Part shown: one piece after another, positions 52,733 to 57,018 of the stretch
Layout of the letters: every line of letters starts with the position of its first letter
Position numbering within the stretch: the stretch's first letter is position 1
Assembly: GCA_022711465.1 (NCBI GenBank)
Contig: JAKLEZ010000003.1
Location: 186,001-250,000 of the forward strand
DNA from: Planctomycetota bacterium
GTDB lineage: Bacteria; Planctomycetota; Phycisphaerae; UBA1845; PWPN01
DNA length: 64,000 bases
Direction of reading: 5' to 3'
Program-made: the position numbers and the translations under genes
Notes under the pieces: generated by a model
Databases searched by the model: none
Seen by the model: only the letters and a program-made list of their open reading frames with translations
Told to the model about the DNA's origin: nothing

Positions 52733-53935
52733 CTACACGCTCCGCCCAGCCGAAGGCGCCGACTCGATCGCTTCCGCCTTCACCACCGGCCCGGGTCGGA
52801 CACGCCTCGGCCGTCGCTTCGGCTTGGCCGCCTCGGCGGCCAGCGCGTCCGGGTGCATCGGCTCCGCCAGGGCGGTCTTCGCCCCCGAGAGCGCCGCCGC
52901 ACCCGCAGTCACCGGGGCCACCGGCGACGGAACCACAACCACCGGTACCGCCGCCTCAGGAACCTCCGCCTGGGGTCCGCCAGCCGCGCACTCCTGCTCG
53001 GCGATCGCTGCCCTCGATGGCTGAATCCCACCGCTCGACGCCACAGACAGAACCGACCCCGCCTTCGCCTTCTGGTCGGCGGCCGGCAACACCACCCCCG
53101 AAGGCGCCGGATCACCCGCCCCCCCCACCTTGCCGTCGATCTCGGCGGCCAGCTCCTCGTAGTCCTTGGCTCCGTTGCTGTCCGGCGCATAGTCAAAAAT
53201 GCTCTGCCCGTGGCTGGGAGCCTCCGCCAGCTTGATGTTCCGGCGAATCACACTCTTGTACAATCGGGCCGAAGACCAAGGCATGTTCCCCGACTTCGCC
53301 GAGTCCAGAAAGGACCTCACGTCGTCCACCACCTCGGCCGCCAGCTTGGTCCCGGCTTCGTACATGCAGATCACCACCCCGCCCACCTTCAAGCCCGCGT
53401 TGATCCGCCTGCCCACCAGCAGCACGGTTTCGAGCAGCTTGCTCAAACCCTGCAAGGCCAGGTAGTGCGGCTGAAGCGGAATCACCACCTCCTGGGCCGC
53501 ACACAGGCCGTTGAGCGTCAACACACCCAGCGACGGCGGGCAGTCAATCAGAACGTAATCGTACTTGCTCGTCTTCGGGTCCCTGTCCAGCCCGACATGT
53601 TGGTCCAGCAGGTCGCGCAGAATCACCTCACGCCCCACAACGCTCACCAGCTCAACCTCCGCGGCCGCTAAATCAATGCTCGACCCGACCACCCACAAGT
53701 TGTTGGCCACCTTCACCCGGCACTTGGCGATCGAGGTCGACCCGGCGAGCAGCTCATAAGTGCCCGGACGATTGGCAGCGGGATCCACACCCAGGTGAAG
53801 GCTGAGGTGGCTCTGCGGATCCAGATCGATGACCAGAACACGATGCCCGGCCCGGGCCAGGGCCGCCGCAACGTTCGCCGTGGTCGTCGTCTTGCCCACA
53901 CCGCCCTTCTGATTGAGCACCGCAATGCGTCGCAT
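52733..53935 (-). CDS. parA: ParA/Soj-type ATPase with Pro/Ala-rich C-terminal extension
   Basis: A 400-residue protein that starts after a strong GGAGGAGGT. The deviant Walker A NQKGGVGKTTTTAN, the switch region YVLIDCPPSLG and the later GGVVICMYEAGTKLA fit ParA proteins that partition chromosomes, plasmids or protein clusters. ParA proteins are usually 250-270 residues; here about 130 more residues follow, rich in Ala, Pro and Val and ending in a basic Arg/Lys cluster. A TATAAT box (minus strand, 54017-54012) lies about 75 bases before the ATG. No parB is next to it. Its neighbours on the same strand are the Mu-like head genes. Confidence 0.88.
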   Translation of the reverse strand: MRRIAVLNQKGGVGKTTTTANVAAALARAGHRVLVIDLDPQSHLSLHLGVDPAANRPGTYELLAGSTSIAKCRVKVANNLWVVGSSIDLAAAEVELVSVVGREVILRDLLDQHVGLDRDPKTSKYDYVLIDCPPSLGVLTLNGLCAAQEVVIPLQPHYLALQGLSKLLETVLLVGRRINAGLKVGGVVICMYEAGTKLAAEVVDDVRSFLDSAKSGNMPWSSARLYKSVIRRNIKLAEAPSHGQSIFDYAPDSNGAKDYEELAAEIDGKVGGAGDPAPSGVVLPAADQKAKAGSVLSVASSGGIQPSRAAIAEQECAAGGPQAEVPEAAVPVVVVPSPVAPVTAGAAALSGAKTALAEPMHPDALAAEAAKPKRRPRRVRPGPVVKAEAIESAPSAGRSV

Positions 53936-54011
53936 CGGACCTCCTCCCCGACCGGCGCCAGCGGCCCCGGCAGGCTGCTCTTCATCCCCCACCCTCATGG
54001 AAAGCGGCGTC

Positions 54012-54017
54012 ATTATA
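54012..54017 (-). promoter_or_regulatory. -10 box (TATAAT) before parA
   Basis: The minus strand reads TATAAT at 54017-54012, about 75 bases upstream of the parA start. No good -35 is present. It lies after the end of the gpT gene, so parA may be transcribed separately from the head cassette. Confidence 0.4.
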
Positions 54018-54177
54018 TGAAAAGAGCACCACTCAGGCCAAACCGCACCCACCCCCCGTCACCCCGCACCAACAAAACCGCGGAATGACCGAGGCGAGGC
54101 GGCCGATCCCCCGACCCGGCCGCTCTCGCCATCCGTCATCCCGCGCGAATCACCCACCCTCGGCCGTCACCAGCCGA

Positions 54178-55095
54178 TCACGTGAACGTCGTCCGCACCG
54201 CGTACTGCCAGTACCCGTAAGCCATGCGGTACCGGGCCCGCACCCCAAACAGCAGCTTCTCGCGCTTGAACCCCTCCTCGCTCTCCTCCGCCAGGGCCCC
54301 GAACTCGACCGGCTCGCGATCCTGAAAAATGAACGGCCGGACCACGCCATCCGTCTTGAGCAGGTACCACACCGTGGCCGATGTCAGCCAGGGCAGGGCA
54401 ATCACCCGAGCCGCACCGGCCATGACGTTCGAGGTCTGATTGATCACCGTCGCGCTCACCGCCTCCATCGCCGTGAACAGCATCGGCGGCGGAACCACGC
54501 ATACCATCCCGTTCATGCCCACCGGCAACGGCTCGCCCTGATCATCCTTGAACGACAGCATGGCCGCGATCGCCTGCCTCAGCGCACCTTTGAACTCGTC
54601 GGTCGTCGGTAGATTGTCGCCGGCCGCCGCGGCGTAGGTCACATCATTGTCCTGCACCCCTGATCCTCCCGAGATGTGACTGCCACTGAAAAATGGTACC
54701 CCGTCGTAGCCGTGAAACCCCGCACCCGCACCGTTGGTCAGCAGCCGCCCGATCAGGAAATCCTTGTGCGTCGCCGCCCGCTGGGCCAGCTCGCCAATCC
54801 GCACCCGGATCTGCCCGGTCTGGTCATCGGCGATCTCGTCACGGTCCACTTCAATCGTGGCCTCGTACTTGAGATTCTCCACCGAGTATCGCTCCGTCCG
54901 AAGCCCCTTGGCCAGCCGGCCGTTGCCCCACTCCCGCATCCGCGGAACCGTCCCCAGCCAGCGATACGTCTCCGCGTCCGAGCTGGACGCAATTCGCGTC
55001 GCCAGATCACGGTAATGCACCACCGTCTTCTCGAAGCGATCGAAAAACTCGCTCCGAAGCCCCTTGGTCAGCAAGCCCGTGTTGATCACCGCCAT
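54178..55095 (-). CDS. Mu-like major head (capsid) protein gpT
   Basis: A 305-residue protein, the same length as phage Mu gpT, with AAAGGA before its ATG. Segments shared with Mu gpT include TYRWLGTVPRMREW, the region from YSVENLKYEATIEVDRD to DDQTG, GYDGVPFF and RPFIFQDREPVE. The end reads KLLFGVRARYRMAYGYWQ, as in Mu. It should assemble into capsomers after scaffold removal by the protease encoded by the first gene of the cassette. It is 124 bases from the decoration-like gene. No tail or packaging gene follows; parA is next. Confidence 0.92.
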   Translation of the reverse strand: MAVINTGLLTKGLRSEFFDRFEKTVVHYRDLATRIASSSDAETYRWLGTVPRMREWGNGRLAKGLRTERYSVENLKYEATIEVDRDEIADDQTGQIRVRIGELAQRAATHKDFLIGRLLTNGAGAGFHGYDGVPFFSGSHISGGSGVQDNDVTYAAAAGDNLPTTDEFKGALRQAIAAMLSFKDDQGEPLPVGMNGMVCVVPPPMLFTAMEAVSATVINQTSNVMAGAARVIALPWLTSATVWYLLKTDGVVRPFIFQDREPVEFGALAEESEEGFKREKLLFGVRARYRMAYGYWQYAVRTTFT

Positions 55096-55219
55096 GTGTG
55101 ACGTCCTTTCATGTTTCCTGGCCGATCAGCCGTCCGCAGCCGAAGATGCCCACCGTGTTCCGACCGTCAGCCGCCCACGGCCTCCTCGCTCCACGCCCCG
55201 CCCTCGATCTCCAACGGCT

Positions 55220-55975
55220 TCAGGCGATCTTCTTCGCCACCACCGCCCAACCCGTCCCATCGCAGAAAACGGTCACCGAGTCGCCGTTCGCGTCCATCTC
55301 GGCCTGCGTCGTCGCTCCGTCGATCAGCTCGCCGCCACTCGGATCGATGGTCAAGAGGCCGGAGGCTCCACTCTTGATGAAAGTACACCAGGCCCCAGCA
55401 CCCGCCGCGGCGGCCGCAGGCAAGACCAGCAGCCCCGCCGTCGTACCGGTCACGATGATCATGCCTCCCAGGTCCCCAGCCCCGACCACCATGCTCGCGG
55501 CACTCGCCTTGGTCACCACCTTGTGCTTGATGCCCGCCGAAACCAGCTCGCCGGTCATCGCTCCGCCCGCCAGCGGCGTCGGCGTGGTCTGAATCCGCAG
55601 CACGATCAAGTTGCTGCCGCATACCTCCAGCTGGAAACCAACAAAACTGTTCCCCGCGGCCGTCACCGTGAGGGTGTTGTCCGCAGAGGCATAAACCGCC
55701 GAACGGTTGCCCGCCCGCGAGGCGCCCGCCAACACGTGCTCAAAATCCCCCATCGTGAACACCCGAACCACCCGCCCGCCGTCGCCGCCCGACGCGTTGT
55801 CCATCTCCTCATAGGCAATCCCGGCGAAAGAATCACCCGCCAGAAGCGGCCGGACGTGCCCGTTGTTCCACCCCAGAAACGCACCCTTGTAGATGCGAGC
55901 ACCCGCCCGCACCGGCAGGGCGCGCAGCTCCTGGTCCACGTACCGATCCAAGTCCCGATTGGCCGTCAAAGCCAT
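55220..55975 (-). CDS. Capsid decoration-type protein (DUF2190-like), Mu gp33 position
   Basis: A 251-residue protein that starts after AAGGAGG. The N-terminal 115 residues (RALPVRAGARIYKGAFLGW, AGDSFAGIAYEEMDN) match DUF2190-type phage proteins that decorate or stabilise capsids. The second half is a beta-rich region with a glycine-rich GDLGGMIIVTGTTAG, possibly a tail-fibre-like or trimer-forming domain. It sits between the protease and major head genes, the place of the small gp33 gene in Mu. The identity of the second half is uncertain. Confidence 0.7.
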   Translation of the reverse strand: MALTANRDLDRYVDQELRALPVRAGARIYKGAFLGWNNGHVRPLLAGDSFAGIAYEEMDNASGGDGGRVVRVFTMGDFEHVLAGASRAGNRSAVYASADNTLTVTAAGNSFVGFQLEVCGSNLIVLRIQTTPTPLAGGAMTGELVSAGIKHKVVTKASAASMVVGAGDLGGMIIVTGTTAGLLVLPAAAAAGAGAWCTFIKSGASGLLTIDPSGGELIDGATTQAEMDANGDSVTVFCDGTGWAVVAKKIA

Positions 55976-56049
55976 CTCCCAAAACCTCCTTCTGCCTGAC
56001 CACGACGAGCAGCGCCCGCCATCCCATTCGTCCCCCTCTTCCCCACCAC

Positions 56050-57018
56050 TCACCGATCGCCGGAACCCGTACCTCCAAAAGCATCTCTCAACGCCTCACC
56101 CACCCAGGCCTCCTCGCTGGTCAGCAACGCCAGGCTCGGATCCGACCGAAACACGGCCCGCGCCGAGGCTGCGATCGCTTCCCGATCCCGCCCCCATTCC
56201 ACTTTCGATCGCGGCCCATCGGTCCGGCCGGGAACCACCACCTGCGGCGCTGTCGCCAGCCACCCCTCAAAACCCGCCGGATCCCTCATCGCCAGCGACA
56301 TCGCCCACTCACGCTGCGCCGGAACCAGACGACCACTCCGCATCGCCCCCAGAACCCGCTCACCGGCCTCACGCAGTAAGGACTCCCTCGCCAGCTGACG
56401 CAGCCGCTCCTCGGCCGCAACCAGAACCGCCTCCACCTCACTGTCCGAAGCCAGTCCAAGCTGAACCCGAAGACCAGCCAGACTCGCCTCCGCACGGTTC
56501 ACGATCGGCCGCATCCCCGCGATCGCCGGCTTGTTCGTCAGGGCCGCCGAATGCAGGGCGACAACCCGCCGGTCAGCCTTCCGGACCAGAACCACCGGCG
56601 AGAGGTAACGATACTCCTTGGCAGCCAGCTTCTCACGCCCCCCCGCCGTCCATTCCACCTCCGCAAATAGGCCCGCCAAAACCTCACCACCCTCACCCGG
56701 CGGCACCGCGCCAAGAGCCCGAATCCACCCCGCCGCCGGCGCCTGACCGCTCGGAGAGGAGTACGCCCCACCCAGGCTCTGATGCTCGTAATCGATGGGC
56801 ACCTCCGTCCCGTGAGCCGTGAACGCCGCAATCACTTCCCGTGCCGACAGCTCGTCGACCACAAAACGACCATTCGCCGACGTGACTTCACCCCACGGAA
56901 CGAGCAACACCCGCCCAGGTACCCCATCCACACCCACCACCGCGGCCGCCACCAGACAACGCTCCGAACCCTGGACCGCAACCGGCCCGCCACCCACCAC
57001 GCCACCACTCGGGTCCAT
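56050..57018 (-). CDS. Mu-like protease I protein (head maturation protease and scaffold)
   Basis: A 322-residue protein; the start at 57018 follows GGAGGT. The Mu I features are VDELSAREVIAAFTAHGTEV, the conserved IDYEHQSL, PAAGWIRAL, EVEWTAGGREKLAAKEYRY and ALHSAALTNKPAI. In Mu the N-terminal part is a serine-type protease that matures the head and the C-terminal part is the scaffold. The frame is open 330 bases further upstream through a hydrophobic segment, but no ribosome site is there. It is the first gene of the three-gene cassette. Confidence 0.9.
   Translation of the reverse strand: MDPSGGVVGGGPVAVQGSERCLVAAAVVGVDGVPGRVLLVPWGEVTSANGRFVVDELSAREVIAAFTAHGTEVPIDYEHQSLGGAYSSPSGQAPAAGWIRALGAVPPGEGGEVLAGLFAEVEWTAGGREKLAAKEYRYLSPVVLVRKADRRVVALHSAALTNKPAIAGMRPIVNRAEASLAGLRVQLGLASDSEVEAVLVAAEERLRQLARESLLREAGERVLGAMRSGRLVPAQREWAMSLAMRDPAGFEGWLATAPQVVVPGRTDGPRSKVEWGRDREAIAASARAVFRSDPSLALLTSEEAWVGEALRDAFGGTGSGDR

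Follow-up and report, generated by a model that had tools for sequence, protein, structure and literature searches.

A Mu-like head gene cassette as part of a candidate tail-reduced, GTA-like element in an order of Phycisphaerae

Three adjacent Mu-like head genes in a Planctomycetota genome probably belong to a five-gene, domesticated head-and-packaging set that is fixed in an order of the class Phycisphaerae and that would form a tail-reduced element resembling a gene transfer agent (GTA). Few GTA lineages are known, mostly from Alphaproteobacteria, and no earlier report of GTAs in Phycisphaerae was found in the literature searched, which took in few subscription papers or preprints. The three genes lie in a stretch of 64,000 nucleotides, called the window here; its genome is designated G000 and a second genome of the same genus G001.

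Three intact head genes lie among host genes

Reading of the window and matches to Pfam and PHROG place intact Mu-like genes I, D and T at 54178-57018 on the minus strand, surrounded by host genes (Table 1). All three frames are open and ribosome sites are visible. The cassette is flanked by pfkB upstream and by a gene for a ParA-family ATPase downstream, and no other phage gene lies within 3 kb. A first-pass annotation of this DNA had described the intact cassette, its Mu order, the ribosome sites and both borders, and all of these are confirmed. The Pfam and PHROG matches and the order-wide conservation of the cassette are far above chance.

Table 1. Features of the head gene set and its 3' boundary (window positions unless a contig is named)
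Feature	Position	Strand	Basis
parA-family ATPase, host gene, sets the 3' boundary	52733..53935	-	also in G001, G003 and G004
T-parA junction; holds gp36, gp37 and tail-tip genes in relative G004	53936..54177	.	gene maps
T, Mu-like major head protein, HK97-type family, 305 aa	54178..55095	-	Pfam and PHROG
D, putative capsid decoration protein	55220..55975	-	PHROG, structure model, alignment
I, Mu-like head maturation protease/scaffold	56050..57018	-	Pfam, PHROG, motifs
Portal, Mu-type	G000:C23:261856-263070	as cassette	profile search of G000
TerL, large terminase	G000:C23:263255-264550	as cassette	profile search of G000

T matches the Pfam family Mu-like_gpT (PF10124) at 1.9e-54 and the PHROG major head protein phrog_371 at 1.5e-58, and a search across G000 found a single copy. 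The Pfam match is made of stretches that are out of order (model positions 4-135, 224-289 and 153-216). A circular permutation of T was considered on this account and rejected, as tblastn to Mu-like phages gives co-linear, one-piece alignments, and the disorder is treated as a profile artefact. I, which starts at the ATG at 57018, matches PF10123 (Mu-like_Pro) at 8.5e-53 and phrog_328 at 5.5e-51, and its motifs DYEHQ and ALTNKPA are near-invariant in an alignment of 58 rows.

D starts at the ATG at 55975, within an ORF that stays open to 56053, and matches phrog_1731 (PHROG 1731, virion structural protein) at 2.8e-16 as well as phrog_15797. Alignment divides it into a conserved N-terminal part of ~125 aa and a family-specific C-terminal domain. 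When the AlphaFold2 model of the protein (pLDDT 82) was compared by Foldseek, the N-terminal ~125 residues matched decoration proteins and head-fibre bases of the phages XM1, T1, Sf11, phiCD508 and phi29. On this structural comparison D looks like a decoration protein or head-fibre base, a resemblance that fits an expanded, DNA-filled shell. The C-terminal ~120 aa (window 55220-55600) differ among families or are missing, as expected for a displayed surface domain.

Terminase and portal complete a five-gene set

Profile searches of G000 revealed a Mu-type portal gene and a large terminase gene (TerL), each in a single copy, on the same contig as the cassette, ~19 kb upstream of I and just outside the window. 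The first-pass annotation had suggested looking elsewhere in the genome for the missing Mu genes; with TerL and portal found, its minimal three-gene module turns out to be a head set of five genes that host genes divide in two. In TerL, the Walker A and Walker B motifs and the RNaseH-like acidic residues are near-invariant in alignment. The genes between portal and I are host-like wherever a family can be assigned, and include a melibiase-type hydrolase, a sodium:solute symporter, a cytidine-deaminase-family protein, a carbohydrate-binding protein and pfkB. In G001, the genes downstream of the portal match those of G000 in lengths and order.

Operon order was taken from clustering the neighbours of T in named Phycisphaerae MAGs. 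In many relatives TerL, portal, I, D and T are contiguous, usually followed by gp36 and often by gp37 and tail-tip genes, and gene maps show the head genes in Mu order. According to match positions, at least 40 genomes of the order have TerL and T no more than ~9 kb apart, which makes a local rearrangement of a single system the best explanation of the split in G000. A second split, outside family f1, is seen in the single-contig genome G096 (L272, L027), where TerL-portal-I lies ~2 Mb from D-T-gp36-gp37.

The set is widespread in one order

T is present in 82 of 101 relatives and in 58 of the 63 good genomes, mostly in one copy. In a class-wide sample, 85 of the 98 genomes from the order carry it, compared with 8 of ~299 in the remainder of class Phycisphaerae. 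Resident T proteins share 63-82% identity with that of the window outside family f4, and ~40% within f4. TerL occurs in 50 of the 63 good genomes, and nearly all f4 genomes are without that TerL type.

The host neighbours of the set vary. parA is the 3' neighbour only in part of one family (it is common to G000, G001, G003 and G004), and in several genera of family f7 the set precedes the host gene QueD (k12) instead. parA was not judged part of the head-gene system, and the earlier idea that ParA might position the particle is not supported by this distribution.

Intact orphan TerL genes occur in three genomes where T was not found, namely G023 and G079 (L278, L279) and G029 (L277), the last of which also has a portal; gene content in these genomes indicates that parts of the set were lost in some lineages. 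Family f4 (L130, L173-L175, L261, L280) carries a second, ~40% identical set, portal-I-D-T-gp36, with no recognisable terminase. A 541-aa gene beside it was considered as a terminase candidate and rejected, being an amidohydrolase. In the T tree the f4 protein groups with phages of other bacteria, and the f4 set may be a separate domestication.

Neck and tail genes are reduced stepwise

Within family f1, gp36, gp37 and the hub are kept in G004, G006, G009 and G011, whereas G007, G008 and G010 keep gp36 with no gp37 seen, and profile searches found none of the three with the set in G000, G001, G003 and G005. In G004 the space between T and parA is precisely where gp36, gp37 and tail-tip genes sit; in G000, G001 and G003 it is only a short junction, in which an HMM scan detected no remnants of gp36 or gp37. 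The gp36, gp37 and tail genes have been lost in G000, its congener and two other genera, and the head genes there stay intact. Of the two modules distinguished, module A comprises gp37, a 714-aa protein and small proteins, and module B comprises different small proteins. The model of the 714-aa protein is similar to hubs of baseplates or tails (Mu gp44, gp27, VgrG), at a pLDDT of 70 that makes it only moderately reliable. No gp37, tail hub, cognate tail tube or lysis gene is recognisable with the G000 set in a search limited to the set's own families, and the tail tube family PF18906 is absent from resident sets; its matches are confined to mobile phages (G026:C9, G032:C2) and to a prophage that G000 carries apart from the set.

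That prophage (G000:C12:314000-333999, L262) is siphophage-like and carries a portal, a minor head protein, a head-tail adaptor, a tape measure and a tail tube. It also holds the sole gp36-like match in G000, which was considered as a relocated neck gene and rejected, as it sits in this unrelated element.

Since the window's genus is without a cognate neck and tail, either other proteins would complete the particle or bare heads would be used in some new way. The first alternative has heads made by the set and tails and release supplied by other phage-like genes or prophages in the same cell. The C12 prophage, with its portal, tape measure and tail tube, could be such a source, and GTA genes may be spread over several loci (PMC12946183). 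However, G001 keeps the head set yet has no match to the gp36-like gene or the tail tube of C12, and the C12 prophage has head genes of its own, so that we regard this arrangement as unlikely. The second alternative, that the order has fixed a Mu-like DNA-packaging capsid which some genera keep under selection without neck or tail, strikes us as possible, and we put it forward tentatively.

Stop codons interrupt gp37 of G042 (G042:C47:158051-158875), where decay is visible while the resident T is open, and fragmentary extra T copies with stop codons occur in G048 (C19, C231) and G027 (C54). The first-pass annotation had named stop codons in relatives as a sign of decay; on checking, the resident T stays open.

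A protein shell is disfavoured

The first-pass annotation had also offered an empty shell or storage compartment as possible roles. A host-kept, encapsulin-like protein shell would package no DNA, and TerL and portal would be separate leftovers. Only I, D and T adjoin in the window, the neck and tail are gone, the displayed C-terminal domain of D could bind cargo, and f4 is without a recognisable TerL, all of which would suit a shell. Encapsulins, too, are HK97-family shell proteins whose gene stands alone in the bacterial chromosome. Unlike encapsulins, T matches phage gpT families and its partners are a maturation protease, a decoration protein, a portal and a terminase; no encapsulin cargo gene was identified with the set. 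Purifying selection acts on TerL and portal as it does on the other genes; both are intact and single-copy, catalytic motifs are conserved, and in many relatives the two share one operon with I, D and T. A protein shell would need neither. Because TerL and portal are conserved as members of the set, DNA packaging appears the better reading, and a pure protein compartment is improbable.

The set is inherited vertically under purifying selection

Pairwise distances among 27 genomes were compared with those of RpoB, chosen by homology, in Mantel tests. The correlation with RpoB was 0.65 for T, 0.75 for D, 0.70 for I, 0.81 for portal and 0.82 for TerL, against a best of 0.20-0.32 in 1000 permutations. 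With a mean distance of 0.278 for T and 0.287 for RpoB, the resident head protein is about as conserved as RpoB. In the T tree f7 forms one clade, and nine of ten f1 rows form another. Between G000 and G001, dN/dS is 0.088 for T, 0.195 for D, 0.177 for I, 0.110 for portal and 0.147 for TerL; dS of the five genes is 0.15-0.22, and that of the neighbouring host gene parA 0.18. Against G003, dN/dS is 0.15-0.36. The five head genes are intact in all three of these genomes, with dN/dS well below 1. Comparison of the sequences thus indicates that the set is inherited vertically with its host across a broad clade and is under purifying selection, in line with the earlier suggestion of a capsid module kept by the host. 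In carbon cost, resident copies do not differ clearly from mobile ones, and the carbon-content bias reported for known GTAs is not clear here.

These results bear on whether the set is instead an ancient prophage remnant in slow decay. The scattered orphan TerL genes and the way f1 members have lost tail, gp37 and gp36 step by step look like decay, but five intact frames with dN/dS of 0.09-0.20 within the genus, order-wide retention, a constraint like that of RpoB and the keeping of head genes where the tail is lost largely refute this reading, to which we assign a very low probability.

Mobile relatives are distinct from the resident set

Several genomes carry a second T, with 29-64% identity, and mean pairwise identity is 71% among resident T pairs and 47% among mobile pairs. 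A MuA-type transposase lies near some second copies (in L268, PHROG transposase at 5.8e-81), and PF09299 is found within ~10 kb of T in G066:C77 and G071:C62 and at ~15 kb in G032:C2. Wherever MuA is close to a T, it accompanies mobile copies. MuA (PF09299) has no match in G000, G001 and most other genomes tested, and the matches in G003 and G043 sit on different contigs or at megabase distances. The resident set has host genes around and between both its parts, no MuA, and no linked genes for replication or integration. A complete phage elsewhere with matching sequences had been named as evidence against a host-kept module; related copies do exist in relatives, some near MuA, and they are separate from the resident copy.

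In the compact Mu-like mobile elements of L268 (G066:C77), L275 (G051:C10) and L266 (G071:C62), D and T share a strand, and I lies on the opposite strand next to a gene of MuA size, which in L268 was identified as a transposase; no TerL was recognised near any of the three.

A recently integrated, active Mu-like phage with its remaining genes missed would agree with the MuA-carrying copies in the same order, but G000 and G001 have no MuA, host genes flank and separate the parts, G000, G001, G003 and G004 have the same parA neighbour, and the nearest named phage T is only 31-35% identical. Synteny and host congruence have already refuted this reading, and its probability is negligible.

Comparison with known systems and proposed function

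The set shares with the GTAs or viriforms RcGTA, BaGTA and Brachyspira GTA phage-derived head and packaging genes, vertical inheritance, purifying selection, a low substitution rate, an order-wide spread and the lack of replication and integration genes. Unlike these, it has a Mu-type portal, protease and head protein and no tail tube or tape measure, its host order belongs to Planctomycetota, the window's genus is without a cognate neck and tail, and it is known from genes alone. The missing link to replication or transposition genes, the vertical inheritance and the strong constraint together are genomic marks of GTAs (PMC6821227, PMC8987985), and a part of a gene-transfer particle is the best supported of the roles first suggested for the cassette.

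FpGTA of Faecalibacterium is encoded at two loci and forms ~40-nm particles with ~9 kb DNA and no identifiable tails; its TerL-portal-scaffold-capsid core is present in all examined strains, its second locus was undetected in seven, and its operon includes baseplate, fibre, holin and endolysin (PMC12946183). It is like the G000 set in its split over two loci, the lack of a visible tail and the retained TerL-portal-capsid core, and is a close functional precedent for a GTA that is split and shows no tails. The two differ in that particles with DNA have been demonstrated for FpGTA, whereas the Phycisphaerae set is known from genes only, with no second locus of the kind that carries baseplate, fibre, holin and endolysin known for it.

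Mu-like phages (Pseudomonas JBD26-type, FP_Mushu) have the same order, gp28 (TerL)-gp29 (portal)-I-D-T-gp36-gp37, and homologous T and portal proteins (31-35%). Unlike them, the resident set is without a recognised MuA transposase, gpF, tail tube, tape measure or lysis genes.

For the five-gene, GTA-like set favoured here, intact TerL and portal suggest a capacity to package DNA. T and I would assemble at the portal vertex into a prohead, I would cleave and remove the scaffold, and TerL would drive DNA through the portal. Since the set is accompanied by no genes for replication or transposition, the cargo would presumably be host DNA. Trimers of D would stabilise the filled shell and may display the variable C-terminal domain. 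In most relatives the neck would be closed by gp36, often with gp37, and some would add a stub tail tip, a hub protein with neither tail tube nor tape measure. In the window's genus the product would be a bare DNA-filled head that leaves by some route or is completed with proteins from elsewhere.

We therefore propose the set as a candidate for a new, order-wide, tail-reduced GTA-like viriform. If this is true, a capsid system of Planctomycetota, conserved like RpoB throughout an order, would represent an independent domestication from Mu-like phages. If some genera do keep only the head, DNA-filled heads would serve something besides ordinary tailed delivery, possibly release by lysis followed by uptake by competent kin, or intracellular DNA handling. 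The stepwise loss of tails with heads kept turns the purpose of a tail-less phage head into a testable question.
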